Below are positions 27,284 to 52,005 of a DNA stretch of 52,005 nt, one piece after another. This stretch comes from a virus: positions 1 through 52,005 of the IMG/VR virus record IMGVR_UViG_3300009080_000014; one strand, written 5' to 3'. Below the pieces are notes generated by a model that was given only the letters and a program-made list of their open reading frames with translations, did no database searches and had not been told where the DNA came from. Both the position numbers and the translations under genes were made by a program. Every line of letters starts with the position of its first letter. Within the stretch, counting starts at the first letter, position 1.

Positions 27284-27627
27284 AACTATCAACTATTATA
27301 TTAGAGTACGGAGAGTACCAAAAGCAAGAAGATAAACTAGCTAGAGATATAGAAAACCGTTTTGACCTACATAGAGTATCAGCTAGTATGGGTAACTACT
27401 CAGGAGATAGAGAAGAAAACGATCCTTTAAAAGGTATGTCTTTTGGTAAAATTACTTTTATGACTAGAAACGACTTTGAAGATAGTACTTGGAATAAAAT
27501 ATTAGAGTACGTTAAATCCTTAGGTTATGAAGTAACTTCTGAATCTAACTACTTTGAAGAAGACCCGGGTGAACGTTATTACTACCCAACAATAAAATTT
27601 CAATTTAAGACCGATGAAACTAACTAG
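27280..27627 (+). CDS. Hypothetical protein with capsid-tag-like N-terminus, 115 aa
   Basis: Starts MKLSTIILEYGEYQ, with I-L-E at residues 7-9, matching the T4 capsid-targeting layout. The rest is a small alpha/beta protein with two acidic patches and a FEEDPGERYYYPTIKFQF end. The start overlaps the stop of the tiny basic gene (ATGA), and its end overlaps the next gene by 14 bases. No family is recognised. If the tag is real, it would be packaged in the head and cut after residue 9. Confidence 0.7.
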   Translation: MKLSTIILEYGEYQKQEDKLARDIENRFDLHRVSASMGNYSGDREENDPLKGMSFGKITFMTRNDFEDSTWNKILEYVKSLGYEVTSESNYFEEDPGERYYYPTIKFQFKTDETN

Positions 27628-28045
27628 AATCCTTATAGGAGAAATATTAGAATCAAACAGAGGTTTCGAAATAGAAATCGATAAGCTTAAAGACAGAGGA
27701 GCTACATATATAGGTTCTGGCGATTATGGCTCAGCTTACTTACTAGATGGAAAAGTACATAAAGTAACTACAGACGAAGTAGAATTAGAGCACGCTTTAA
27801 TATTAAATAAGAAAAAAACAAATAATTTTGTATATATCTACGACGTAGAGGTTATTAATAAAAAGTTAGGAATAGTAGTAATGGAAGTTCTAGGAAAACT
27901 AAAAGAAGACATTCCTGAAGAATTTGTTGAAGCAGTTCAAAAAGAAGCTACTAGATTAGGAATTGACCCAGATGAATTAGACTTTGTAGGAGATAACATT
28001 ATGGTACACCCTAAATCAGGTAAACTCAAAATGATTGACGTATAA
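27614..28045 (+). CDS. Minimal protein-kinase-like protein, 143 aa
   Basis: Starts MKLTRILIGEILE (I-G-E at 8-10, tag-like). The body reads like a reduced kinase fold: a Gly-rich loop (IGSGDYGSAYLLDGK), a Lys in the next strand (VHKVT), a hinge-like IVVMEVLGK, then VGDNIMVHPKSGKLKMIDV, which resembles the catalytic Asn loop and the Asp of DFG. At 143 residues it lacks most of a C-lobe and the HRD motif, so it may be a pseudokinase or bind nucleotide only. It is the last gene before the promoter at 28047. Confidence 0.6.
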   Translation: MKLTRILIGEILESNRGFEIEIDKLKDRGATYIGSGDYGSAYLLDGKVHKVTTDEVELEHALILNKKKTNNFVYIYDVEVINKKLGIVVMEVLGKLKEDIPEEFVEAVQKEATRLGIDPDELDFVGDNIMVHPKSGKLKMIDV

Positions 28046-29816: not shown

Positions 29817-30593
29817 ATGAACAAATCATTATTTTTATTACTAGTATTATTATTAACAGGATGTGCTACTTTTCAAGTCAGCACTTTAAATCATGACCCA
29901 ATATATTCTATTGAAGGCTCAGATGCTGAAATAACCGTAATTAATAATGAGTTTGAACTTCAACGATTACTTAGAACAGATTTCAACTTTAGATATGATT
30001 TTGCTCAATATGCAATAAGTCAGCCTAGATCATTTGATTGGAACAATAGATTATTAGGTAATAGATATAGCTTTTATAATCCCTACTACAGTAGAACACA
30101 AATGTGGAATGATTGGGTATGGGGATACAATTGGCATTCACCTCATAGATGGTCACCATTTGGATATGACCGATGGGGCTATAACAACTACGGTTGGAGT
30201 AATAACTACGGATGGAATTATAATAATAGCTGGAATAACTGGAACTATGGTTATTATAATGCTAATTATAATAGAAGAGTAAATACATCCTATATAAACA
30301 GTATAAGAGGGAGAGTAGCACAAACAAATAATAGGAAGAGTAGAATAATTAACACGAGAACTAATGATCAAATTATTAGAAATAATACAAGAACAACAAG
30401 ATCAACCCAAAGCAGTAATAATGGCAGGTGGAGGGGGAGCAGGGAAGTCATACCTACTAAACCAGTTAGGGTTAGACAGCCTTCAACAATTCAACCCGGA
30501 CAAATACGTGGAGGATCCAGACCACCCGTACCACAACAAACTAGGACCCGCGTCAATGCAAGTAGCAAAAGACGTGGCAGCGGCGGCATCTAA
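29817..30593 (+). CDS. Predicted lipoprotein rich in Asn, Trp, Tyr and Arg, 258 aa
   Basis: The signal peptide MNKSLFLLLVLLLTGCATF has a lipobox LTGC with Cys16. The central part (about residues 80-160) is extraordinarily rich in Asn, Trp, Tyr and Gly, with YGWxNN-type repeats. The C-terminal 75 residues are Arg/Pro/Gln/Ser-rich and overlap the next gene in a different frame. It was probably acquired from or adapted to a Bacteroidetes host envelope. Function unknown; superinfection exclusion is a reasonable guess. The low-complexity C-terminus is what overprinting would be expected to produce. Confidence 0.7.
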   Translation: MNKSLFLLLVLLLTGCATFQVSTLNHDPIYSIEGSDAEITVINNEFELQRLLRTDFNFRYDFAQYAISQPRSFDWNNRLLGNRYSFYNPYYSRTQMWNDWVWGYNWHSPHRWSPFGYDRWGYNNYGWSNNYGWNYNNSWNNWNYGYYNANYNRRVNTSYINSIRGRVAQTNNRKSRIINTRTNDQIIRNNTRTTRSTQSSNNGRWRGSREVIPTKPVRVRQPSTIQPGQIRGGSRPPVPQQTRTRVNASSKRRGSGGI

Positions 30594-31305
30594 CAAAGAA
30601 AGCCTAGTATGGGATACTACAGCTTCAGGAGCTAAGTTTATGACCCAATTAGACTCTATGCTTGCAGCAGGGTATGGAGTATACATGGTTATGGTTTACG
30701 CTCACCCAATGATCTCTTACGCAGCAAACTTTGAAAGAACAGAAAGATCACTTCCATCTGTAGCAGTATTTTCAACTTGGAGAAATGCTTATCAATTAAT
30801 TGACCACTACCAAGAAAAACTTAAAGGTAACTTATCTATTTTTGTTAGTGACCGTGGAGGAAAGTTTAGTAAAGAAACTGCAGCGTTTGATAAAGCAGCA
30901 GAAGGTGGAGTAGAGGGAATAAAAGAATACTTGAAACAGTATAATGAAGAAACAGGAGCAGGTAAATCATCCTTTTTCTCTCCAGTAGTAATGACTAAAG
31001 AAGAAGAAGAAGCATTTAATAAAGATGTAAGCGGCATAGAGTATAATAAAGATAATAGATCAGAAGACAAAGCAATTAAACAAGCATTTCTTAAAGCTTT
31101 TAAGAAAAACGGTGTAGGACCGGGAGCTGATAAATTAGCAGATGCTGTTAAGAAGTTTAGAGATAAAAAAGAAGTAAGTGATAAAAAGAGTGACGATGTA
31201 CTAAAGAATATAGCAGAAATGCTATTTAGTCCAAAATTCCAAGAATTACTTAAACACTCAGAAGTATCAGATATAGATAGTAAAGTTCAAGCATTTTTAA
31301 GATGA
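30364..31305 (+). CDS. Zeta-toxin-like P-loop kinase, 313 aa
   Basis: Walker A is GGGGAGKS at residues 22-29, with strand VIMAGGGG before it, then FNPDKYVED and LVWDTTAS (a zeta-toxin-like Asp) and YAHPMISYAANFERTERSLP, as in zeta/AAA-type small-molecule kinases. The C-terminal third is Lys/Glu-rich and helical. The N-terminus (MIKLLEIIQE, I-Q-E at 8-10) fits the capsid-tag pattern. Its first 230 bases, including the whole Walker A, lie inside the lipoprotein gene in another frame. Later starts would remove the P-loop, so this start must be right. It could phosphorylate a nucleotide sugar or another host target. Confidence 0.7.
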   Translation: MIKLLEIIQEQQDQPKAVIMAGGGGAGKSYLLNQLGLDSLQQFNPDKYVEDPDHPYHNKLGPASMQVAKDVAAAASNKESLVWDTTASGAKFMTQLDSMLAAGYGVYMVMVYAHPMISYAANFERTERSLPSVAVFSTWRNAYQLIDHYQEKLKGNLSIFVSDRGGKFSKETAAFDKAAEGGVEGIKEYLKQYNEETGAGKSSFFSPVVMTKEEEEAFNKDVSGIEYNKDNRSEDKAIKQAFLKAFKKNGVGPGADKLADAVKKFRDKKEVSDKKSDDVLKNIAEMLFSPKFQELLKHSEVSDIDSKVQAFLR

Positions 31306-36656: not shown

Positions 36657-37070
36657 ATGAAATTTATAAGTATTCTTAAAGAAATGAGAAAAGAAGCATG
36701 CCCTTCTGCAACTCAAGACTTAAAACTTAATACAAAGAATAGAGACTCTGCAATTAGAGCTCAACATATTCAGTATGGTCCTTTAAATGTATCGGAACCC
36801 GGTAAATATTGGATTGATATAGCTAAGTATTGGAATACAACAGAAGAAGCAGCAAAAGGAACTAATTGTAGTAACTGTGTTGCTTTTGACATTTCTCCTA
36901 GAATGGAAGAATGTATGCCTGGAGTTACATCTGATGAAGATGGAAAGTTAGGTTATTGCTGGATGCACCACTTTAAATGTCATTCAGCAAGAAGCTGTAG
37001 AACATGGGCAAAAGGCGGCCCTATAAATAAAGATAAGATATCTCAAGATTGGCAAGAAAGAAATGAATAA
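36657..37070 (+). CDS. Cys-rich protein with capsid-tag-like start, 137 aa
   Basis: Starts MKFISILKEMRKEACPS (L-K-E at 7-9). The C-terminal half holds a Cys/His cluster: NCSNCVAF, MEECMPG, GYCWMHHFKCHSARSCRTW, giving seven Cys and several His that could bind zinc or an iron-sulfur cluster. It ends AKGGPINKDKISQDW. The order and spacing resemble a small conserved phage protein without known function. It is overlapped by eight bases by the next gene. A metal-binding role is inferred only from the residues. Confidence 0.65.
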   Translation: MKFISILKEMRKEACPSATQDLKLNTKNRDSAIRAQHIQYGPLNVSEPGKYWIDIAKYWNTTEEAAKGTNCSNCVAFDISPRMEECMPGVTSDEDGKLGYCWMHHFKCHSARSCRTWAKGGPINKDKISQDWQERNE

Positions 37071-41000: not shown

Positions 41001-42046
41001 GTAAAGAATTAGAAGATAGAAATGAAGCTTTATATGATAAATTAGTTCCAGGATCAGGCAAAGCAGAGACTATACAAGGTGAAATGTTAAGAGCTATTAA
41101 TAGAATAGTTTACCGTTATTATAATGACGGAGATGAATATCATACAGGGTATGGAACAGAAACAGCAGGTCCAGCACATTCATTTTTAGTTAATGCTAAT
41201 CATCCTCTTAGATCATTAGTAAGTAAGTTATTTAAAGACGGTACTAATTATGAGCAAACAATTAAAGATGTTCTAGATGCTATTTTAGATCATATTGAAT
41301 CAAGACAAGGCAAATATGCTCCTAATAGTGAAGACATGTTTGATTATGAATCTGAATTTCAAGACGATGAATTTGAAGAAGATGACTATGATGAGTACGA
41401 TTACGATGACGATGATTATGATGAATTTGATAATGAAGAACAGTATCAAAATGAAGATTTAGATGTAGGTCATCAAGATGATGAACCAAAAATGATTCAA
41501 AAAGAACTATACGATATAGCTCAATATGCAGCGAAATTGTTTAAAAGATTGAAGAAGTATGACAGTATGGAAGATGAAGTTGATTTTCCTCACTGGTGGC
41601 AAAAGAAAGTAACATTAGCAAGAGAATACATATCTTCAGCTAATCACTACTTAGAAGGAGAAGAAGAAGCTCAATTAACAGGTAAATTAACCTTAGAGAA
41701 TTTAGTGAGTGAATATGGCGGAAGTGCTTCTAGAAACTTAGATGAAATATTTGGAGCATTAGGATATAGACAAGGCTTTGACGAATTTATAGAAGATAAT
41801 CCTGGATGTGTAGAAGTAATAATGGAATGGATCGGAGGAATATCTGATTTTCAAGAAAAATTATCTCAAGAATACGATAATGAAGAGTTAGAAAATTTAG
41901 GATTTTACTTTGGCGATGATGATTATAACGAATCAGTAGTTATTAAAGAAGAAGCAACTTGCTGCGGTAAATGCGGTAGAGTGCACGTTAAAGGTAATTG
42001 TAAAAAACCTTACCTAAAAGGAACTAAACACTGTAGAACTAAATAA
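38054..42046 (+). CDS. Very large acidic protein, possible head-interior polyprotein, 1330 aa
   Basis: Starts MKYQEIKKRLDKCQVRLELL. It is dominated by Asp/Glu/Lys helices, with several small separate-looking modules: an acidic run of DDDDYDEFDNEE at about 1120-1135, a basic GKAGKKKTGLHDSFKLTL segment near 880, and a terminal Cys cluster (CCGKCGRVHVKGNC ... KHCRTK). (L/I)-x-E sites lie at module edges: E220, E250, E834, E898, E970 and E980. In T4 such sites are cut by gp21. I cannot name a function. Candidates are a scaffold/core component or a polyprotein of packaged proteins. Confidence 0.5.
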   Translation: MKYQEIKKRLDKCQVRLELLQTKQAATKSSNIIRPEKAAIKVLKESIKRYKKLLKEGEESYLLTPKGGKPTLAKLSSDEVDALKDSEDVDKIKTASGDEVKESNLLTKNSGVEFSLQETKDIAKLVGKALAATLKKAGDELSKMKAHRIDVNSFDIYVEYKKDVNVDDFSFYIANDKLHIVDFTFNKELVEVGVKPSGEGIINVDVLSNELLKHFKSLSEGGDYDPDQMQKDDEEEHGVGYDDEGRPLGEGEGDDHHYIKVTQSDYKPAMAILDDNIDPTYVKMDVVDNDGAGNVIIYFMFRHEDGFDDMYDDSENPDSEFYQEPDEDPNAFMYDMVMDLAARGVDVVDSSHSHDVDEVMDINDPVMLKVRRAKMHSDKMKKLDDYSKSPEGRAAARSFASSERKESKAREVVRKLKIKRAQVMSDMENDPEIESTGGPVSDMYGDQLNKIDNAIEKAASVYNKNMSYDTAVGKVSESEMHSTFEDYIAKLEGRVYVERSSDGRIFIHPLDKPGVRRPSRDYIIIDGNNVTSIQGYDSGPIEDLAKKYYLEVGTSQLTPMGKINARGRVSLLSTNILVDAIKAIKDSRDVESKKQSDYYTDRGPVSGVGNMDESKIPLKEFTDNSFLGSEVIDRANDSAPDMFGKQIFADLLPKGVASENDAFEALKAHDKSPIKARMGRYAPMFVHVQYHNLEHEGEEYQMHQTQYYNSNFKDKDPNFNPGVSKITLFKDPEGEDINLGTIVVKTDEYVQDLRNLPGLGKRVSEVVNELDDNKSKALVKKAVADINGAMFKFRHSNPLKMIAAKDKDLKVKLDSMHNAIFDLEKVLKAKNITEAKGGQIMPGDYVKNQHGNIYQRVDGKVGKHDAYVRVTNGKAGKKKTGLHDSFKLTLVDKSELTEATRQDLGMVTSVSKRRAGAELKQKLAGKRSDGMGKYDGKIYGLDNDGKRVELKSLNDLNKFTKFELDADLNENKKIGKQLNEFVGKELEDRNEALYDKLVPGSGKAETIQGEMLRAINRIVYRYYNDGDEYHTGYGTETAGPAHSFLVNANHPLRSLVSKLFKDGTNYEQTIKDVLDAILDHIESRQGKYAPNSEDMFDYESEFQDDEFEEDDYDEYDYDDDDYDEFDNEEQYQNEDLDVGHQDDEPKMIQKELYDIAQYAAKLFKRLKKYDSMEDEVDFPHWWQKKVTLAREYISSANHYLEGEEEAQLTGKLTLENLVSEYGGSASRNLDEIFGALGYRQGFDEFIEDNPGCVEVIMEWIGGISDFQEKLSQEYDNEELENLGFYFGDDDYNESVVIKEEATCCGKCGRVHVKGNCKKPYLKGTKHCRTK

Positions 42047-42049
42047 GCT

Positions 42050-43111
42050 ATGCATAAATTAGAAAAACTTGTACTAGAAACGTACGGAAAGGTGCTAAAC
42101 GAAATAGAAGAGGAGACAACAAAATCTTGGGAAAACCTTCCTAAAGAACAGCGTATTAGCCTTATTGCTCGCTATGGTGAACCTAAGTTTAATGGTCAAC
42201 ATGATTTCTTAAGCAGCGACGGGGATACTTACTTTAAAGCGACGGATAAGAATACAACCACAGGTAGTATTAGCCATAAAGTAATTCCATTACCGTCTTT
42301 CGGATCTATGTACAGTAATTTTTCGGATATAGTACAAGACTTAAAAAAACTAATGCGTTCTGATGATGTTAGAAAAGACCAAGCAGCAAGAGAGTTATTT
42401 GAATTAATTAAAACTAATTTTAGAAAGCTACAACGGTACCTTAGAACAGAAAGACCTGAACAATACCAGTTAATGAGACTAAGACGTTCTTTAGAGGAAG
42501 CAGTAGCACAATTAAAAAAAATACCTGTAGTAGCAGAAGCAAAGTTATTTGAAGAAGATCCAACACCTGAAGAAGAAGGTGATAAGACAGCTTCAAAAGA
42601 AACAATATTAGAAGATGCTACAGATATAATATTAGGGAAGTTTCCAACTTTGAAAAAAGCTATAGTTAAACTTCAAACAAACCAGTTTAAAGAGTTTGTA
42701 ACCAGCATTGACTGGATATCACCTAGACCATCATCATTTAGAGTAAATATTAAAAATGGTCAATCATACATACTTAAATGGACAGGTACTGGATTTGAAG
42801 CACAAATACTAGGTAAACGTTACTACATCGATAAGATAGATGATTATCAACAAGCTTTAGACAAGTTAAGCAGACTTTACAGAGAAGGGCCTATGAGCAA
42901 TTCTGGAGAGGCAGAGTCCGCTGAAACTGACACTGGAAGTTCTGGTGGAGGTGGAGGCGGGGACTTCCCCGGCGGTGACTCTGGAGGTGGAGAAGCAGAT
43001 GCAGGAGTAGATGCTCTTAGCGGAGACGCACCAGCAGATGATACAGGGGGAGCTGATCTAGGAGGAGAACCAATAGACTTTGAAGAACCAGCAGAAGACC
43101 CAGAAGCATAG
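42050..43111 (+). CDS. Hypothetical protein with tag-like start and Gly/Asp tail, 353 aa
   Basis: Starts MHKLEKLVLETYGKVLNEIE (V-L-E at 8-10, L-N-E at 16-18). Residues 20-165 are a mixed domain (LISRYGEPKFNGQHDFL-like sequence and SFGSMYSNFSDIVQDLKK). A second folded part spans 190-280 (FVTSIDWISPRPSSFRVNIK, GTGFEAQILGKRYYIDKIDD). The end is a long Gly/Asp/Ala-rich disordered tail. It lies three bases after the 1330-aa gene. The ending pattern is like that of virion proteins. Family not recognised. Confidence 0.6.
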   Translation: MHKLEKLVLETYGKVLNEIEEETTKSWENLPKEQRISLIARYGEPKFNGQHDFLSSDGDTYFKATDKNTTTGSISHKVIPLPSFGSMYSNFSDIVQDLKKLMRSDDVRKDQAARELFELIKTNFRKLQRYLRTERPEQYQLMRLRRSLEEAVAQLKKIPVVAEAKLFEEDPTPEEEGDKTASKETILEDATDIILGKFPTLKKAIVKLQTNQFKEFVTSIDWISPRPSSFRVNIKNGQSYILKWTGTGFEAQILGKRYYIDKIDDYQQALDKLSRLYREGPMSNSGEAESAETDTGSSGGGGGGDFPGGDSGGGEADAGVDALSGDAPADDTGGADLGGEPIDFEEPAEDPEA

Positions 43112-43119
43112 TATAAATA
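43112..43119 (+). promoter_or_regulatory. Forward T4-type late element TATAAATA
   Basis: TATAAATAC lies 16 bases before the ATG at 43136. This matches the T4 late -10 box exactly and in the correct orientation, unlike the TATTTATATA motifs. It may start the tag-gene block (43136-45024). A single 8-base match in AT-rich DNA could be chance. Confidence 0.4.
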
Positions 43120-43135
43120 CATAAAAACAAATACA

Positions 43136-43432
43136 ATGAATAACTTTGATTTAAGAAAATTTTTAAAAGAAAATAGAGATACTAAATCTACTAAACTTTT
43201 AAGTGAAGTAGAATTTACTAAAAAAGAAATTATTAATTCTGTTACTTTTCCAACCGGAGATGTATATACAGTAGGAGAATACTCTAACTACGACGGTATG
43301 AGAATAGCTACTATCACACCAGTCCCAGAAAATGAGAGAGAAGCGGATGAAGTAGTAGCTATCGAAATGAGAGATGGAGATAATGCAGTTGTATATAAAT
43401 TTAACGCTGAAGGAAAAGAAGTAGAATACTAA
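43136..43432 (+). CDS. Tag-family protein 1, 98 aa
   Basis: Starts MNNFDLRKFLKENRDTKSTK, with L-K-E at 10-12 and a second site (LLSE) at about 22-25. After the tag comes a small beta-rich domain (SVTFPTGDVYTVGEYSNYDG, EVVAIEMRDGDNAVVYKFN). It is the first of four tag-family genes. If the tag is cut, a cargo of about 70-75 residues would remain. No family known for the cargo domain. Confidence 0.75.
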   Translation: MNNFDLRKFLKENRDTKSTKLLSEVEFTKKEIINSVTFPTGDVYTVGEYSNYDGMRIATITPVPENEREADEVVAIEMRDGDNAVVYKFNAEGKEVEY

Positions 43433-43451
43433 AACATTTAAAGCAAATACA

Positions 43452-44132
43452 ATGAATAACTTTGATTTAAGAAAATTTTTAACTGAAAATAAACTTACTC
43501 CTAATAGTAAGTTAGTTAAAGAAAATCACCTAGGTATAGATATTGCAGGAGCAACACCTCAACAGATAGGGTTGATTAGATGGGAACATGAAGTGTACGG
43601 CAGAGGATTTCCCACGCCATCCTCAAAAGGTCCATATGATAAACAATTCTATGCTGATGAAATTATGAAGCTAAACTCAGAAGAAGAAGTACGGGATTAC
43701 TACAAATATAAAAGAAAAGAATCACACGTTAAAAAAATTGGTCACACAGGAACAAGGGATTTAGTAAAAGATGAAAATGGAGAAGTAAAAATTTTCGATG
43801 GATTAGACAACTATGGTGATCGTTTGTGGATTACACGAGCTGTTAAAGCTTGGATAAAAGCAGGTAAACCAGTAAAACCTGTCCCACAACCAGAGACTGG
43901 AGATCCGAAATACTTAAAAGTAGCTAAAAAGTTAACCGATATGTATAAGTCTACACCTCAAGGAAGAAAAATTATAATGGGGACTAGGCCTTTTAGAAAA
44001 GACGGTACTGATGATGTCCAAGCACTTATTCTTTCCGCAGATCAATACTTAGAGTATTTCGAAGAAAGAGGAGATGAAGATGGAGTTGAAATAGCTAATT
44101 ACTTTCTTAACTCTTTAGGAGATTTAGATTAA
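43452..44132 (+). CDS. Tag-family protein 2, 226 aa
   Basis: Starts MNNFDLRKFLTENKLTPNSK, with L-T-E at 10-12 and LVKE near 21-24. The cargo is a charged alpha/beta domain (EHEVYGRGFPTPSSKGPYDK, WITRAVKAWIKAGKP). The C-terminus is helical and acidic (QYLEYFEERGDEDG). It has no enzyme motif. The leader repeat (AAATACAATGAATAAC) is nearly the same as the previous gene's. It probably shares the destination of the other tag-family proteins. Confidence 0.75.
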   Translation: MNNFDLRKFLTENKLTPNSKLVKENHLGIDIAGATPQQIGLIRWEHEVYGRGFPTPSSKGPYDKQFYADEIMKLNSEEEVRDYYKYKRKESHVKKIGHTGTRDLVKDENGEVKIFDGLDNYGDRLWITRAVKAWIKAGKPVKPVPQPETGDPKYLKVAKKLTDMYKSTPQGRKIIMGTRPFRKDGTDDVQALILSADQYLEYFEERGDEDGVEIANYFLNSLGDLD

Positions 44133-44159
44133 TATAGACATAAAATAAAAACAAATACA

Positions 44160-44633
44160 ATGAATGACTTTAATTTAAGAAAATTCTTAACAGAAAAAAA
44201 ATTAACTACTAACAGTAAGTTAATCGTAGAAAACCCAATTTCAACGGAGCAGGGTGTATTAAACACAACAGCATCTGCTGAAACTCTTAAAGGTATTATT
44301 TACCAATTATTAGATGACGGACATATACAACCAGAAACAGCTGATGATTTACTAAATGCTGTTTCAAACTCTCCTTCAGATAACGTATACGAAATAGATG
44401 CTGATCTTTTAAAAAGAGCTCAAAATACTCCTGCACCAAAAGATGCAGCTGAAAAATTAGCTCAACGTAAGAAAGAACAAGACGGTGTACTTAGAGTAAG
44501 TATGGGAGAAAATGCTGAACAGGAGCAAAAAGTTATTGATATTGCTAGAGATGCAATCGCACTTATGGATGAGCAACCAGGAACTAGCGCTATAGATGCT
44601 CTTCAGACAGTAATCGAGTTTAAAGAGGATTAA
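44160..44633 (+). CDS. Tag-family protein 3, 157 aa
   Basis: Starts MNDFNLRKFLTEKKLTTNSK, with L-T-E at 10-12 and LIVE at 21-24. The cargo is helical and acidic (TAETLKGIIYQLLDDG-like, then KDAAEKLAQRKKEQDGVLRV, then ALMDEQPGTSAIDALQTVIE). No enzyme motif. Its stop TAA directly precedes an 18-codon ORF (44634). A packaged head protein is the working hypothesis. Confidence 0.75.
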   Translation: MNDFNLRKFLTEKKLTTNSKLIVENPISTEQGVLNTTASAETLKGIIYQLLDDGHIQPETADDLLNAVSNSPSDNVYEIDADLLKRAQNTPAPKDAAEKLAQRKKEQDGVLRVSMGENAEQEQKVIDIARDAIALMDEQPGTSAIDALQTVIEFKED

Positions 44634-44690
44634 ATGAACCTTATAGATAGAGTCATATTAGAGGATTACATCGAAGAAAACGGTTTATAA
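44634..44690 (+). CDS. 18-residue ORF consisting almost only of the N-terminal tag
   Basis: MNLIDRVILEDYIEENGL: the first ten residues equal those of the protein starting at 45034, and 20 bases are identical (44643-44662 and 45043-45062). The ATG is the base after the upstream stop, and the stop is followed by a TAA microsatellite. It is either the relic of a deleted gene whose tag remains or a small functional peptide. Translation is not shown. The tag match is what makes it more than chance. Confidence 0.45.
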   Translation: MNLIDRVILEDYIEENGL

Positions 44691-44706
44691 TAATAATAAT
44701 AATAAG

Positions 44707-45024
44707 ATGAAAGACAACTTTAACTTAAGAAAATTCTTAATAGAAAATAAACTTACACAAAACAGTCGAGCGTTAAAAGAAGAAGTAGACTACTCAATAG
44801 AACTTCTAGTTCCTGAAGTAGCATTTGACGTAGAATCAGGAGAGATGTCAGATTCCCCTTATGAGTTTGCTACAGAAGATGAAATAGAAAGCGGTGAAGC
44901 AGATGTTACAACTTATACAGATGGTGATGAATTAGATGAGTGGGTTTTTGGTCGAAGTTATGAACAGGCCTTACATTTTGCTAAAGAATACCCACACTTA
45001 ATAAAAATTAACACTCGTCAATAA
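44707..45024 (+). CDS. Tag-family protein 4, 105 aa
   Basis: Starts MKDNFNLRKFLIENKLTQNS, with L-I-E at 11-13 and LKE at about 23-25. The cargo is small, strongly acidic (SGEMSDSPYEFATEDEIESG) and ends in a helix (FAKEYPHLIKINTRQ). It follows a (TAA)n run at about 44688-44705. The most divergent of the four tags, which suggests an older duplication. Confidence 0.7.
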   Translation: MKDNFNLRKFLIENKLTQNSRALKEEVDYSIELLVPEVAFDVESGEMSDSPYEFATEDEIESGEADVTTYTDGDELDEWVFGRSYEQALHFAKEYPHLIKINTRQ

Positions 45025-45033
45025 CCATCTCAG

Positions 45034-46497
45034 ATGAATTTAATAGATAGAGTCATATTAGAATGGTCATATAAAACCAAAAAAGGATATCCTGACATTA
45101 ACAGTCAAGAGGATATGGCTTTGTTTGAATCTTTATTTGGTTTTAACTTAAATGAACTTACAGTAGATCCTCTCTACCAGAGTAAAGGAGTATTCAATCC
45201 TTTTTATGAAATAGAACCTACCGTAGATAAGCAAGTTAGAGACATTTTAAATGATAAGAATATTACATTTAGTAATATAATTTACAGAGCAGTAGATAAA
45301 GCAGAAAATGAACCTATACTGTCAACAAGAGGCACACAAGTATTTGAATTATATACAGATCTAGAAACTCCCTTAAATATTTTTATTAAAATCTCTAAAG
45401 ACAAGGCGATAAAACACTATGGTCAAAAAACTCGTAAAGATTCAACCGCATCCTCTAATGTAAATGAATTTTTATCTTTATACTTTTTAATACATCCTGA
45501 ATTTAGTAGTGTTGAAGATATAAAGGATAAACAAGGAGGAACTGGAGTGCTAACTGGAGATGGAAATGAAGTAAGTTATTCTCAATTAATAGAGTTGTTA
45601 GAAAAAGATGAATCTGCTAAAAGAGACATATCTATTGGGTATAAAAATGCAATTGCACTTAAAAGTGATTTAAACGGTAAATCTTATAAAAAGCTATACT
45701 GGACACCAAGAGCTAAACCAGCAAATATAAACCCTAAAAACCCATCTGATATTATTCTAGAATTAGAGGATGGAAATTTTATAGGGTACTCAAATAAAAT
45801 TGCTTCAGGAGAAGATAAAACACCTAAATTTAATACTAATATTATAGCATTCTTTTCTGAATTAGGAGGTTCCCAACCTGAAGATATTAAAGCTCTTATA
45901 GATAATGCATGGGATAAGGCAACTAATGGAGTTCCTACATCTGCATCTAATGCTAAAAAAGCAATTAGTGATTTTGATATTAGAAAAGAAGGATTTTCAG
46001 AAACAACAAGCCGAAGAGCATTTGCTAATTTAGCAATTCAATTTCAACTAGATGATTTAGATTTTTTCAAAGAAGATTTCTACTACCCATTTAGAAATAA
46101 CTTAATAACCTCTTTTTCTAAGTATTTAGAATCCCCAGTAAATTTAAAATACTTTTTAAATACTATAAGTGTTATTACTTACGGAACTCAAAGTATAGGT
46201 GAAACTCCTTGTCCCTATAAATTATTAGTAGGTTCTGGAAATTCGGAATCCACAATTAAAGAAGTATCTGAGAATAAAGCCTTGAGAGATGTGGTGAATG
46301 TTGATTCTATTGAAGATATAAAAAGTATACAAAACAGTTATAATGGAAGTTCACAATCCTTTACTGTTAATTACCAATTAAGTATAGGAAGTGAAATAAA
46401 AAACATAACTATACCGGTAACTGTAAGAACTAGATCAGCAGGAGGATGGAGCGGTAAAAACCCTTTCATATCATCTTCTGGAGTTAAAATAAGTTAG
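45034..46497 (+). CDS. Candidate restriction-endonuclease-fold protein with capsid-tag-like start, 487 aa
   Basis: Starts MNLIDRVILEWSYK (I-L-E at 8-10). An NEFLSLYFL helix at about 143-151 is followed much later by NPKNPSDIILELEDGNFIGYSNK (about 231-253), which fits the core of a PD-(D/E)XK-like fold: Asp, then a strand with Ser-x-Lys (YSNK), the acid replaced by Ser as in some families. The C-terminus is beta-rich (GSEIKNITIPVTVRTRS). It is a candidate packaged DNase; the fold needs testing. It precedes the terminase gene by two bases. Confidence 0.5.
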   Translation: MNLIDRVILEWSYKTKKGYPDINSQEDMALFESLFGFNLNELTVDPLYQSKGVFNPFYEIEPTVDKQVRDILNDKNITFSNIIYRAVDKAENEPILSTRGTQVFELYTDLETPLNIFIKISKDKAIKHYGQKTRKDSTASSNVNEFLSLYFLIHPEFSSVEDIKDKQGGTGVLTGDGNEVSYSQLIELLEKDESAKRDISIGYKNAIALKSDLNGKSYKKLYWTPRAKPANINPKNPSDIILELEDGNFIGYSNKIASGEDKTPKFNTNIIAFFSELGGSQPEDIKALIDNAWDKATNGVPTSASNAKKAISDFDIRKEGFSETTSRRAFANLAIQFQLDDLDFFKEDFYYPFRNNLITSFSKYLESPVNLKYFLNTISVITYGTQSIGETPCPYKLLVGSGNSESTIKEVSENKALRDVVNVDSIEDIKSIQNSYNGSSQSFTVNYQLSIGSEIKNITIPVTVRTRSAGGWSGKNPFISSSGVKIS

Positions 46498-46499
46498 TT

Positions 46500-48074
46500 A
46501 TGGCAAAAGATATAAAAAAAATAATAGCACAAGAGTACTTTAAGTGTGCTAAAGATCCGGCGTACTTTATGAAGAAGTACTGCTATATACAGCATCCTAC
46601 TAGAGGACGTATACTATTTAATTTATATCCATTTCAAGATAAAGTATTACATTTATTTAGAGATCATCAATACTTAATTACTCTTAAATCAAGACAGTTA
46701 GGTATATCCACTTTAGCTGCAGGTTACTCTCTGTGGCTTATGTTGTTTCATAAGGATAAGAACGTACTTGCTCTAGCAACAACTCAAGCTACTGCAAGAA
46801 ACTTAGTATCTAAGACTATGTTTATGTATGATCAACTACCTAAATGGTTAAGATTACCAGCAGTAGAAAAAAATAAATTATCACTTAGACTAAAGAATGG
46901 ATCGAAAATTACAGCTAAATCTTCTAACGCCGATGCCGCAAGGTCAGAGGCAGTATCACTACTGCTTATCGATGAAGCAGCCTTTATTGATAACATTCAA
47001 GAAACGTTTACAGCAGCACAACAAACCTTAGCAACAGGTGGACAGTGTATGGCATTATCAACTCCTAACGGAATTGGTAACTGGTTCCATCAAACATGGG
47101 AAAAAGCAGAAAGCGCAGAAAATAGCTTTGTACCTATTAAATTACCATGGACAGTACATCCAGAAAGAAACCAAGAATGGAGAGACCAACAAGACTCAGA
47201 CCTTGGTCCTAGAATGGCTGGACAGGAATGTGATTGTGACTTCTTAGCTTCTGGAGATACGGTATTTGAACCAGATGACATGATGTTTTATGAACAAACA
47301 TACTTAAAGGATCCTTTAGAGAGGAGAGGTGTTGACGGTAATTTATGGATTTGGGAAGGAGTTGATTACTCTAAATCATATATGGTTGTAGCAGATGTAG
47401 CTCGAGGAGACTCTGCAGATTATTCTGCATTCCACGTATTTGATGTAGAAACCTGTACTCAAGTTGGTGAATATAAAGGTAAGTTATCTCCTAAAGATTT
47501 TGGAAATGTACTAGTAGGAATAGCAACAGAATACAATCAGGCATTATTAGTAGTAGAAAACGCAAACATTGGTTGGGCTACAATAGAACAAATAATGGAA
47601 CGTCAATACTCAAATCTATACTATAGTACTACATCTCAAATGGAAACTGTAGAATCATATATGAGCAAATTTGAAAGAGATAAACTAGTCCCAGGCTTTA
47701 CTATGTCTGTTAGAACTAGACCTTTAGTAATTGCTAAGATGATTGAATACATAAGAGAAAGAGGTGTTACCATACAGTCTAAGAGGCTATTAGGAGAGAT
47801 GAGAGTATTTGTATGGAAGAATGGAAAACCACAAGCACAGATAAATTATAACGATGATTTACTTATTTCAGCAGCAACAGCGTTATATGTAAGAGATACT
47901 GCTTTAAGGCTAAGACAACAAGGTATGGACCTAGCACGAGCACAATTATCATCTTTTAGTAACCTTAACTCAAGAAACAAAGCAATCATAAATACAGTTG
48001 GAAACCAGCAAAATAATCCGTATATTGTAGATAACGGACGTACTCAAGAAGATATTTCCTGGTTATTAAAATAG
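46500..48074 (+). CDS. Large terminase subunit, gp17-like
   Basis: The ATPase has a deviant Walker A (LKSRQLGIST, Lys63 placed before rather than inside the loop), a Walker B LLLIDEA with Asp158/Glu159 and a coupling motif ALSTPN at 185-190. The nuclease has VVADVARGDSADYSAF (Asp299), LLVVENANIG (Glu353) and NYNDDLLISA (Asp452/453). The 524 residues are close to T4 gp17 (610). It packages DNA through the portal and cuts headful ends. The portal gene follows at 48100 after a late-type motif. The start ATG directly follows the upstream gene. Confidence 0.9.
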   Translation: MAKDIKKIIAQEYFKCAKDPAYFMKKYCYIQHPTRGRILFNLYPFQDKVLHLFRDHQYLITLKSRQLGISTLAAGYSLWLMLFHKDKNVLALATTQATARNLVSKTMFMYDQLPKWLRLPAVEKNKLSLRLKNGSKITAKSSNADAARSEAVSLLLIDEAAFIDNIQETFTAAQQTLATGGQCMALSTPNGIGNWFHQTWEKAESAENSFVPIKLPWTVHPERNQEWRDQQDSDLGPRMAGQECDCDFLASGDTVFEPDDMMFYEQTYLKDPLERRGVDGNLWIWEGVDYSKSYMVVADVARGDSADYSAFHVFDVETCTQVGEYKGKLSPKDFGNVLVGIATEYNQALLVVENANIGWATIEQIMERQYSNLYYSTTSQMETVESYMSKFERDKLVPGFTMSVRTRPLVIAKMIEYIRERGVTIQSKRLLGEMRVFVWKNGKPQAQINYNDDLLISAATALYVRDTALRLRQQGMDLARAQLSSFSNLNSRNKAIINTVGNQQNNPYIVDNGRTQEDISWLLK

Positions 48075-48099: not shown

Positions 48100-49992
48100 A
48101 TGGCAGATAAATCGCTATTTGGACGTTTACAACGGCTATTCTCTACAGATGTAGTAATACGGAATGTTGGAGGAACACAGCTGAAAGTTGTAGACACAAA
48201 TAATATACAGACCACAGGTAAGTACCAGACTAATTCCCTTACGGATAGGCTCTCTAGGTTATATACCTATAATAAAGCAAATATATTTAACCCTAATTTA
48301 AATTATCAGACGTTAAGGGTACAGTTATATTCTGATTATGAAGCTATGGATACTGATCCAATTATAGCATCTGCACTTGATATTATTGCTGATGAAGCAA
48401 CAGTAAAGAATGATCAAAACGAAATACTGGGTATTAAATCTACAGACGAAAATATACAGAGAGTTCTTTATAACTTATTTTACGATGTATTAAATATAGA
48501 ATTTAACCTTTGGTCATGGACTAGAAATATGGTTAAATATGGAGACTTCTTTTTGAAATTAGAAATAGCAGAAAAGTACGGAGTCTATAATGTCCTACCT
48601 TATACCGTCTACCACATTGCTAGACACGAAGGCCATGATCCAGATAATCCTCAAAAAGTAGAATTTGAATTAGATCCTGACGGTATAACTTCTTCAACAG
48701 ATAATTCTTATGCTCCTGGAGGTCCAAACAAAAAGAGTAGGAACATAAAAATAGACAATTACGAAATGGCACACTTCAGATTAATTTCTGATACTCATTA
48801 CCTACCTTACGGTAGATCTTATCTAGAGCCAGCTAGAAAAATATTTAAACAAACATCTCTAATGGAAGATGCAATGTTGATTCATAGAATCATGAGAGCA
48901 CCGGAAAAGAGAATGTTTTATATTAATGTAGGTTCTATTCCTCCTAATGAAGTTGAGCAGTTTATGCAAAAAACTATTAATGGAATGAAAAAAACTCCTT
49001 ATGTTGATCCTCAAACCGGTCAATATAACTTGAAGTTTAATATGCAAAATATGATGGAAGATTTTTATCTTCCTGTTAGAGGCGGGGATACTGCTACTAA
49101 AATAGAAACTACTAAAGGTTTAGAGTACGACGGTACAAACGATGTACAGTATCTACAATCTAAATTATTTGCAGCATTAAAAATACCTAAAGCATACTTT
49201 GGATACGAAGGTGATTTATCAGGAAAAGCTACTTTAGCAGCAGAAGATATTAGATTTGCCAGAACTGTAGAACGTATCCAGAGAATAATGGAATCAGAAT
49301 TAACTAAGATTGCATTAGTTCACCTCTACACTCAAGGCTTCCAGGGAGAAAGTTTAACTAATTTTGAAATTAAGTTAACTACACCTTCTATTATATTTGA
49401 ACAGGAAAAAGTAGCTCTAATGAAAGAGAAGATAGATTTAGCTGCTCAAATGAAAGATTCTAAATTATTTTCTACTGATTATATTTACGAAAATATATTT
49501 GATATGTCTGAAGATAGGTACATGGAAATGAGAGACCTAATGGTTGAAGATGAAAAACGTAAATTTAGAAGAAACCAAATAGAAAACGAAGGAAATGACC
49601 CAGCTTCATCTGGAGTTACATACGGTACACCTCATGATTTAGCATCTATGTACGGTAGGAGAGCAACATCAACTCCAAAAGGAGGTGATCAAACTAACAT
49701 ACCAACAGGTTACTCAGAATGGGGACAGCCAGGCCCTGAAGGTGGAAGACCAAAAGAAAAGGCATCGGTATACGGAACTACAGCAGGACTAGGAGGTAGA
49801 GATCCTTTAGGTACACATGGTTTAAAAGGAGGCTACCCTAGCGACGGAGAAAATGTTAACGAAAATACTATAGCAAAGAATATTTTAGCTAAAAATGAAG
49901 ATTTGTTAAAGAAGATAGTATTTACAAAAAATAGTGACGAGGACAGAGAAGGGCTACTAAACGAAGATCAAATTAGAGATTTAGGTAAGTAG
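48100..49992 (+). CDS. Portal protein, gp20-like
   Basis: A 630-residue protein (T4 gp20 is 524). Signature stretches are LYSDYEAMDTDPIIASALDI, then FNLWSWTRNMVKYGDFFLKL, YLPYGRSYLEPARKIFKQ, EDAMLIHRIMRAPEKRMFY, and VQYLQSKLFAALKIPKAYFG. Next comes the helical stem and crown. About 130 extra C-terminal residues are Gly/Pro/Asn-rich and end in a helix with LLNEDQIRDLG, an L-N-E site that could be trimmed. The dodecameric ring is the DNA entry point and the seed for head assembly. Adjacency to terminase supports the call. Confidence 0.9.
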   Translation: MADKSLFGRLQRLFSTDVVIRNVGGTQLKVVDTNNIQTTGKYQTNSLTDRLSRLYTYNKANIFNPNLNYQTLRVQLYSDYEAMDTDPIIASALDIIADEATVKNDQNEILGIKSTDENIQRVLYNLFYDVLNIEFNLWSWTRNMVKYGDFFLKLEIAEKYGVYNVLPYTVYHIARHEGHDPDNPQKVEFELDPDGITSSTDNSYAPGGPNKKSRNIKIDNYEMAHFRLISDTHYLPYGRSYLEPARKIFKQTSLMEDAMLIHRIMRAPEKRMFYINVGSIPPNEVEQFMQKTINGMKKTPYVDPQTGQYNLKFNMQNMMEDFYLPVRGGDTATKIETTKGLEYDGTNDVQYLQSKLFAALKIPKAYFGYEGDLSGKATLAAEDIRFARTVERIQRIMESELTKIALVHLYTQGFQGESLTNFEIKLTTPSIIFEQEKVALMKEKIDLAAQMKDSKLFSTDYIYENIFDMSEDRYMEMRDLMVEDEKRKFRRNQIENEGNDPASSGVTYGTPHDLASMYGRRATSTPKGGDQTNIPTGYSEWGQPGPEGGRPKEKASVYGTTAGLGGRDPLGTHGLKGGYPSDGENVNENTIAKNILAKNEDLLKKIVFTKNSDEDREGLLNEDQIRDLGK

Positions 49993-51102: not shown

Positions 51103-52005
51103 ATGAGAACAGCAACAGAAAAATATCACGCGGTACTAGAAGGTAAACTTCAGGAAGCAGAATTTGTCCGTCAAATGAGACAAGCATATCCGCAATTTAT
51201 CACCCAATGGAATGGATATAAAGATTCAGTATCTATACTTAAACAGAAGAGTCTTATTTTTGAAAAGAAAGAAGCAAAAGTAAAAGATATTGATGTAATA
51301 GCAGATCAATTTCCTTTAAATACAATTGAAAGAGGAATTGATGCAGAATTGGAAAATATGGGTATAGACTCTACTGGAAATGTATATAAAGAAGATTACA
51401 TGAAAGCTAGAGTCAAAGTAATAGCTAACCTCCAGAAAGATGCTAATCATTATATTAATCTAGTTGCTGGAGAATCAGCTAAAGTAGATAAGCATGATAA
51501 AATGGTTGAGCCTAAAAAAGGTAATGAAGTAGATGTTCACAATGGACTTAAGAAAGCTGATTTAAAAGAAAGCTATAATAAAGAGACTTTATTAAAGAGA
51601 CTTGGTAATGCAGATGATGCAACGATTCAAACTGGAAACGGAAGAGAGTACATTATATATAATCCTAATTCTAATAACGACGACAATGCTGCAATGTGGC
51701 ATGATGATTCAGTATTCGCCTTAGATCAAGACGGAGGAGAGCATGAAATTCATTATAAAGATATAGGTCTTGTAATGGTAGATGAAACAACAAATGAAAG
51801 TAACCAAGAAGAATCAATTGCTAACTACATTATAAAGTACTACTCCAACCCAAAGACAGGAAAGAGTTTAATTGATGATGAAATTATAGGCGACTTTTTT
51901 AAGACTCATCCTGAATCGAGAGATCAAGAACCTCAAGATGCATTAGATAACTTTCAAGAGTTTTTATCAGTGAATTACGAAATGCCTGGTGACTATATGC
52001 AAGAA
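51103..52005 (+). CDS. Head-module protein of unknown function, truncated by window end (first 301 codons)
   Basis: ATG at 51103 opens a frame without stop to the window end. The product begins MRTATEKYHAVLEGKLQEAE (V-L-E at 11-13), then FVRQMRQAYPQFITQWNGYK, a segment I think recurs in large myovirus head genes. The middle has helices and an acidic domain (YIIYNPNSNNDDNAAMWHDD). Its position after the portal gene suggests a scaffold, core or protease-linked protein, but the true C-terminus is not visible. The AT-rich 32-base gap before it has no obvious promoter. Confidence 0.65.
   Translation, partial: MRTATEKYHAVLEGKLQEAEFVRQMRQAYPQFITQWNGYKDSVSILKQKSLIFEKKEAKVKDIDVIADQFPLNTIERGIDAELENMGIDSTGNVYKEDYMKARVKVIANLQKDANHYINLVAGESAKVDKHDKMVEPKKGNEVDVHNGLKKADLKESYNKETLLKRLGNADDATIQTGNGREYIIYNPNSNNDDNAAMWHDDSVFALDQDGGEHEIHYKDIGLVMVDETTNESNQEESIANYIIKYYSNPKTGKSLIDDEIIGDFFKTHPESRDQEPQDALDNFQEFLSVNYEMPGDYMQE

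Follow-up and report, generated by a model that had tools for sequence, protein, structure and literature searches.

A recurrent N-terminal tag on unrelated genes of T4-like phages as a putative capsid-targeting sequence

Introduction

Four consecutive genes in a viral genome fragment begin with nearly the same residues and continue into bodies that share nothing obvious. What does the common start do, and how did it come to precede such different proteins? We addressed these questions in a 52,005-base IMG/VR virus record, hereafter the window, which is a fragment of a T4-like myovirus; its hosts are probably marine Bacteroidota bacteria. The nearest named relative is Flavobacterium phage immuto, the window terminase being at most 50% identical to that of every other phage record (Table 1). 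The terminase and portal genes (from 46500 and 48100, respectively) directly follow the four genes on the downstream side, arranged as in the annotation of immuto. An initial annotation of this locus proposed that new cargoes, that is, the bodies behind the shared tag, could be recruited by duplication of leader and tag followed by attachment of a new coding region.

Four genes with one start

As the initial annotation reported, open reading frames begin at 43136, 43452, 44160 and 44707 and share an N-terminal tag. The common start was borne out both by a hidden Markov model (HMM) of the tag (see below) and by a repeat finder, which detected an 86-nt direct repeat in four copies, at 43124, 43440, 44148 and 44698 (76, 100, 84 and 66% identity to the reference copy, respectively). 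In each gene, the repeat codes for M-x-N-F-[D/N]-L-R-K-F-L-x-E. Nucleotide identity also extends, as had been claimed, into the 5' leader of the first three genes: the 12 nt 5' of the ATG, AAA[A/G]CAAATACA, are common to 43136, 43452 and 44160 and absent from 44707. Two further features ascribed to all four genes proved less uniform. The KLTxNSKL-like residues hold except in gene 43136, the tag of which has diverged from them, and the second possible cleavage site is a strict [L/I]-x-E in three of the four tags (LSE, IVE and LKE) and V-K-E in 43452. The first site, L-x-E, is present in all four, with the glutamate at E12, E12, E12 and E13.

Behind the tag, the bodies are unrelated: they show no significant mutual similarity (best phmmer E-value of 0.013 in a database of the four sequences), in agreement with the annotation, and are not clear paralogues. 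None of the four genes belongs to a significant Pfam or PHROGs family. Structure prediction, which had been suggested as a check, was uninformative for the 43452 protein (AlphaFold2 with 4 sequences; pLDDT 58.7, pTM 0.45; nothing significant in a PDB search). The codons of the 43452 and 44707 cargoes evolve as protein, but fast, with pN/pS of 0.30 for 43452, compared with its counterpart in the related phage L012, and of 0.26-0.30 for 44707, whereas the terminase value is 0.08; in the 43136 cargo, differences are too few for a pN/pS judgement.

Table 1. Positions of the tagged genes and of other leader-bearing and head genes in the window (slashes mark putative cuts)
Feature	Position	Strand	Remarks
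Zeta-toxin-type kinase domain after leader MIKLLEIIQE	30364..31305	+	Pfam PF06414, E 2.6e-10, residues 10-129
Gene with MKFISILKE leader	36657..37070	+	Cargo family is that of a tagged gene in L090, E 2e-64
5' segment AAAACAAATACA and gene 1 tag	43124..43207	+	Up to second L-x-E; FLKE/N, LLSE/V; from repeat copy and translation
Tagged gene 1, 98 aa, cargo group D5 (4 members)	43136..43432	+	Same cassette in L012, 90-100% identity, other neighbours
5' segment AAAGCAAATACA and gene 2 tag	43440..43523	+	FLTE/N; second site V-K-E, not strict
Tagged gene 2, 226 aa, cargo group D7	43452..44132	+	Cargo pN/pS 0.30 vs L012
5' segment AAAACAAATACA and gene 3 tag	44148..44231	+	FLTE/K, LIVE/N; breakpoint vs L008 at ~44226
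Tagged gene 3, 157 aa, cargo group D0	44160..44633	+	C-terminal module AEQEQKVIDIARDAIALMDEQPGTSA common to other tagged genes
Mini-ORF MNLIDRVILEDYIEENGL, 18 codons	44634..44690	+	From sequence, BLAST segments and repeat D2
Tagged gene 4, 105 aa, cargo group D10	44707..45024	+	Tag to 44781: FLIE/N, LKE/E; without shared 5' segment
Second leader type, MNLIDRVILE...LFE...NLNE (~41 aa)	45034..46497	+	Heads 13 body classes in relatives
Terminase large subunit (gp17)	46500..48074	+	Locus anchor; 76% identical to immuto terminase
Portal protein (gp20)	48100..49992	+	Position matches annotated gp20 of immuto
Prohead-core-like protein, start only	51103..52005	+	Cut by window end; relatives hold cargo modules in it

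The tag in related phages

We compared about 165 related loci, of which 80 were fetched by terminase and 84 were stretches retrieved by the DNA pattern of the tag. In these loci, an iterated HMM built on the first 30 residues recovered 104 distinct N-termini at E-values of 2.4e-8 or lower, the next match having an E-value of 2.5. After removal of identical sequences and fragments, 108 distinct tagged proteins fell into about 41 cargo groups (phmmer E < 1e-3, coverage of at least half, tags masked); looser linking yielded 35 groups, one of which, with 50 proteins, was over-joined via fused genes with internal tags. The tag appears to be a plug-in address label, carrying dozens of other proteins in related viruses. 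When tagged genes that differ in cargo are compared, their nucleotide identity is ~0.30 outside the tag and 0.6-0.85 across it: the profile begins to climb at about -30, peaks at 0.75-0.85 over FDLRKFLxE and has fallen to background by about +70. Upstream of the start codon, similarity among tagged genes tapers off within ~15 nt.

Among GenBank phages, the tag is restricted to Immutovirus, with four copies per genome, and its exact pattern occurs once in 84,980 prokaryote species genomes. This one tagged gene stands on a contig binned as an uncultured bacterium (L181; CALMEO010000055.1); by our reading, its neighbours look like phage replication genes (ssDNA-binding protein and recombinase), so that the contig is probably a mis-binned phage. 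In some relatives, including the 176.6-kb record G001, no tagged gene was found, and the tag is therefore not essential to the lineage. Searches with two cargo bodies against 50,697 phage records (tblastn) produced no match, and 19 other tagged cargoes had only weak, below-cut-off matches in Pfam (a DUF and a winged-helix model).

Several tagged proteins show peculiarities. Single ORFs of L136, L151 and L088 contain a second complete tag inside, like two fused tagged genes, and a protease cut at the internal tag would part the two cargoes. The gene immuto26A_194 (L001, 12606-13607) is annotated as cob(I)alamin adenosyltransferase PduO, yet it is a tagged gene, and we consider this annotation doubtful. 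A Sec- or lipoprotein-like segment follows the tag in cargoes of L116, L105, L144 and L167 and in immuto 1803-2318 (LLTVAMASAILASCG; AAVLTALLGAPNLTQAQ), so that an export signal might be uncovered once the tag is cut off; as a group, the cargoes are not enriched in such segments relative to other genes. An enrichment of membrane segments among the cargoes was also considered and dropped, the proportion being 9.3% in both tagged and untagged genes.

Selection on the tag and its putative cleavage sites

The tag is under purifying selection: between genes with different cargo, pN/pS over FDLRKFLxE is 0.18 (pN 0.11, pS 0.63). Because synonymous sites are near saturation, the tag copies must be old and, at so low a pN/pS, are kept as a peptide rather than as DNA. 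Among 106 tags, the glutamate of the first site is conserved in 99%, and P3 is always leucine. Of these tags, 83 (78%) have a second [L/I]-x-E whose glutamate lies between tag positions 12 and 32, versus 17% of cargo stretches of equal length, and this second site is retained when its spacing varies.

The prohead protease gp21 of T4 cleaves after L/I-x-E, and in the leader of the T4 internal protein IPIII, targeting is set by residues 4 and 7 and processing by residues 8 and 10 (PMC9026906). Counted back from the cut, the tags of all four window genes have L at P7, F at P4, L at P3 and E at P1; the corresponding residues of T4 IPII (MKTYQEFIAE) are Y, F, I and E. Beyond this spacing pattern, the tag and the T4 leader share no sequence homology. 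Consistently, the four genes lack PHROGs and Pfam matches that would tie them to T4 internal proteins, and among phage records the tag query matches only Immutovirus.

A gp21-family S77 protease (Peptidase_S77) is encoded by immuto (E-value of 8.9e-35) and in 20 of 28 long related records, where tagged genes often flank it, often at a distance of <1 kb. The window stops short of the protease gene, which is known from the relatives; the tagged locus adjoins terminase, portal, core and protease genes. Judging from these sequence features, the most fitting reading of the tag is that of a capsid-targeting sequence as in T4, with sites of the gp21 type, neither of which the initial annotation had named.

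Exchange of cargo cassettes

An alignment across related phages, proposed with the annotation, showed that cargo changes while leader and tag stay: among the close relatives (the window, L008 and L012), the locus is polymorphic, with gene number, order and identity all differing. The window and L008 are 95.6% identical over 41901-44226. This match stops at the second cleavage site of the gene 3 tag, beyond which the cargoes differ completely; it is back at 45031-45145, within a second type of leader (see below), is lost over the body of gene 45034 and resumes at 46486. The comparison with L012 gives a cleaner case: window positions 43109-43526, which span the 5' segment, tag and cargo of gene 1 and the tag of gene 2, correspond to L012 4059-4477 and are 90-100% identical for most of their length, with identity of 0.3-0.5 on both flanks and other neighbours in L012. 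Synonymous divergence of the gene 1 cargo between the window and L012 is 0.04, whereas the neighbouring cargo family reaches 0.29 and the terminase 0.33; hence, this cassette moved recently. The mini-ORF at 44634-44690 (MNLIDRVILEDYIEENGL) joins the beginning of the second leader to the end of a tagged gene that L007 and L008 possess and, from this composition, is likely a recombination scar.

This pattern matches what recombination between repeated tags predicts. Since the breakpoints of cargo swaps between near-identical phages fall inside the tag, the repeated tag is probably also a recombination handle. Thus, the variation of cargo behind a fixed tag, anticipated in the initial annotation, was confirmed, whereas its proposed route was not: the data show ready-made cassettes exchanged via recombination between tags, rather than the birth of a cargo by duplication and subsequent attachment.

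Interchangeable leaders

Cargoes found behind the tag can also stand behind other leaders. The cargo at L009 9407 is tagged there, but its homologs in L015 and L019 start with MITLSELILE and MKLSELILE, respectively (E-values down to 2e-91). Likewise, the family of window gene 36657 has the leader MKFISILKE in the window and the tag in L090 (Table 1), and a tagged cargo of L116 has a match in a short immuto gene at 125241 (MENNFDIHKWQAKFLKE). Leaders of a strict T4-like pattern, in which P4 and P7 are hydrophobic and the glutamate of L/I-x-E falls within residues 8-14, were found in 10 of 24 window genes at 26-46 kb versus 1 of 32 elsewhere (p = 4e-4) and in 8 of 21 immuto genes at 100-120 kb versus 5 of 184 elsewhere (p = 3e-6); since the zones were picked after the data were seen, both tests are to be taken as indicative.

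Two such leaders are extensions before a recognizable domain. The Zeta-toxin-type kinase domain at 30364 begins at residue 10, right behind a capsid-targeting-like leader, and an Fe/Mn superoxide dismutase on the T4-like phage contig L055 (2320-2967) has its domain from residue 14, behind the leader MIKMSDILLE, and is possibly packaged in the head. In addition, small proteins with a leucine-rich leader and a glycine-rich loop resembling the P-loop of protein kinases are encoded at window 27614-28045 and immuto 103366-103806; neither has a Pfam match.

The second type of leader begins gene 45034 (start MNLIDRVILEWSYKTKKGYPDINSQEDMALFESLFGFNLNE), just upstream of the terminase, and in most members carries [L/I]-x-E at residues 10, 32 and 41. 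Its body classes mostly have no significant mutual similarity. Most of the bodies contain, as seen by eye, a D...(I/V)SxK motif, with E, AD and ISxK invariant in one class, which is suggestive of PD-(D/E)XK nucleases. The AlphaFold2 model of one body class (7 sequences) was too poor to bear on this (pLDDT 54.5) and had no significant PDB match.

Cargo modules in prohead-core proteins

Whole tagged cargoes recur within large core-like proteins encoded just upstream of the protease. Such matches include, among others, the L060 cargo in L055 (E-value of 6e-24), that of L064 in L085 (4e-29) and that of L133 in L141 (7e-49). The core protein of L064 contains NKLTPNSKLLKED, the second half of the tag, directly before a cargo-type module, which looks like the fossil of a transfer. 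Furthermore, in L140 (566-2251) and L157 (241-1926), the tag is located at the C-terminus of a prohead-core-like protein (NNTNFDLRKFLKENK-stop). Given the modules inside core proteins, some cargoes could be structural. The link to core proteins broadens the finding of the tag, and no other observation argues as strongly for some cargoes being structural.

What the shared start may do

In our assessment, the shared start is quite probably a capsid-targeting sequence of the T4 internal-protein type, which gp21 would remove and which would allow the cargo to be freed, injected and swapped via the tags. We infer core binding, cleavage, presence in the head, injection and host function of the cargo. 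While the head is forming, NFDLRKFLxE would bind the growing prohead core and draw the attached protein in. A gp21-type serine protease would cut after L-x-E and then, usually ~12 residues on, at [L/I]-x-E, freeing the mature cargo in the head, as the motif and the presence of the protease suggest. The freed cargo would stay in the capsid and enter the next host with the DNA, and, if T4 Ip1-3 are a guide, would most likely belong to a fast-changing set of host-takeover or anti-defence proteins. Homologous recombination between tags, made feasible because every gene bears nearly the same 80-100 nt (5' segment plus tag), exchanges cargo cassettes among genes and phages; this step can be observed directly in the breakpoints in and around the tags.

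An extension of this reading can be offered only tentatively. The phages may possess a general cargo-loading system in which L-x-E leaders are interchangeable and serve enzymes as well (superoxide dismutase, the Zeta-type kinase, perhaps nucleases). Core proteins would be gp21-cut polyproteins of the same modules, so that core, cargo and effectors would form one recombining pool of domains, with the tag as both address label and recombination handle.

Alternatively, the tag could be a peptide for core assembly, with the bodies as structural components of the prohead core (fillers of the scaffold, or factors for size or stability) that are cut up, mostly lost and play no role after injection. 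Whole cargoes do recur as modules in core-like proteins (L060/L055, L064/L085, L133/L141), the tag terminates core proteins of L140 and L157, and T4 IPIII affects head assembly (PMC9026906). However, the set differs between near-identical phages, with near-complete turnover of bodies at one site, which would be odd for a scaffold; the cargoes evolve faster (pN/pS ~0.3) than the terminase (0.08); and enzyme-like proteins carry equivalent leaders (the dismutase of L055 and the kinase at 30364). We therefore regard a purely structural role as unlikely.

The other explanations fare far worse. A leader for secretion, a RiPP-type precursor or a trafficking domain of polymorphic toxins would equally combine a conserved leader, a variable body and a cleavage motif, and some cargoes have a Sec- or lipoprotein-like segment behind the tag; yet the bodies are mostly 70-400 aa long, the tag is charged and amphipathic and is no signal peptide, and it is confined to phages with head genes nearby, its motif fitting the phage's own protease family, so that such a pathway is very improbable. 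Barely credible is that the four genes are diverged paralogues of a tandem duplication with merely better conserved starts: they are adjacent and 66-84% identical over 86 nt, but their bodies lack similarity, bodies across phages fall into ~41 groups, identity drops to background as soon as the tag ends, and the tag boundary is where bodies are exchanged. We give equally little credence to the idea that the stretch acts as nucleic acid, be it as a translation start, an RNA element or a recombination site, and codes for its peptide incidentally, because, even though three genes have the 12-nt 5' segment in common and A-12, A-6 and A-3 are commoner in tagged than in other genes, the tag is nearly saturated at synonymous sites (pS 0.63) but conserved in its amino acids (pN 0.11), and similarity upstream of the start codon fades within ~15 nt.

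If the tag is indeed a capsid-targeting sequence, a plausible target of the injected cargoes, again by analogy, is modification-dependent (type IV) restriction, since immuto carries genes for 7-deazaguanine DNA modification at 18.6-37 kb (QueC, QueD, QueE, FolE, DpdA and QueF; L178). Injected phage proteins can decide the survival of an infection in its first minutes and are hard to find because they share no sequence. A searchable tag yields ~41 candidate groups at once, none of which we found previously described in this phage group. Moreover, the recruitment of injected proteins by phages becomes testable, because near-identical phages show both the swap and its breakpoints, and the tag, if confirmed in its role, would offer a ready-made peptide for loading proteins into heads of Bacteroidota phages.

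Comparison with known systems

In T-even phages, the polymorphic internal-protein loci are reported to differ in which ORFs they hold, how many and in what order, whereas a leader of 11 aa stays constant; the shuffling was reportedly proposed to be driven by homology in the flanks, in a unit of ~70 bp that comprises a promoter and an inverted repeat. Unlike in those loci, the homology here consists of the tag and a ~12-nt 5' segment; no inverted repeats flanking the tagged genes were found, and promoter-like sites were no more numerous than in shuffled sequences, in a scan for promoters other than those of the Bacteroidota type.

Ejection proteins of the SPN3US/phiKZ type, compared here by description only, resemble the tagged proteins in that propeptides of head proteins are cut by the phage's own prohead protease, whereas these descriptions note no comparable shared, swappable tag (PMC5694885, PMC7411985).

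The likeness to T4 IPI, IPII and IPIII goes further: these, too, have a short conserved N-terminal propeptide before unrelated bodies, an L/I-x-E motif with the same hydrophobic spacing before the glutamate and a protease of the gp21 family (PMC9026906, PMC3012670), and the T4 internal-protein set is highly diverse, with only the targeting sequence conserved (PMC3012670). The proteins Ip1-3 of T4 inhibit distinct GmrSD type IV restriction enzymes (Silas et al. 2025, PMC12373910); they enter the cell by injection, have nothing but the leader in common and evolve as a set, a pattern that the tagged genes may repeat in a different host group. Differences from the T4 internal proteins concern the leader itself (NFDLRKFLxE here, MKTYQEFIAE there), the usual second site ~12 residues on, the many more cargo groups, the location of the genes mostly in or near the head cluster and the cargo modules shared with core proteins. 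The T-even internal proteins are the documented precedent, and the tag system, which is well supported, is of the same kind in a distant phage group. It stands apart by a leader of its own, by the usual presence of two cut sites, by the unusual size of its cargo set and by a link to core proteins that was not expected.
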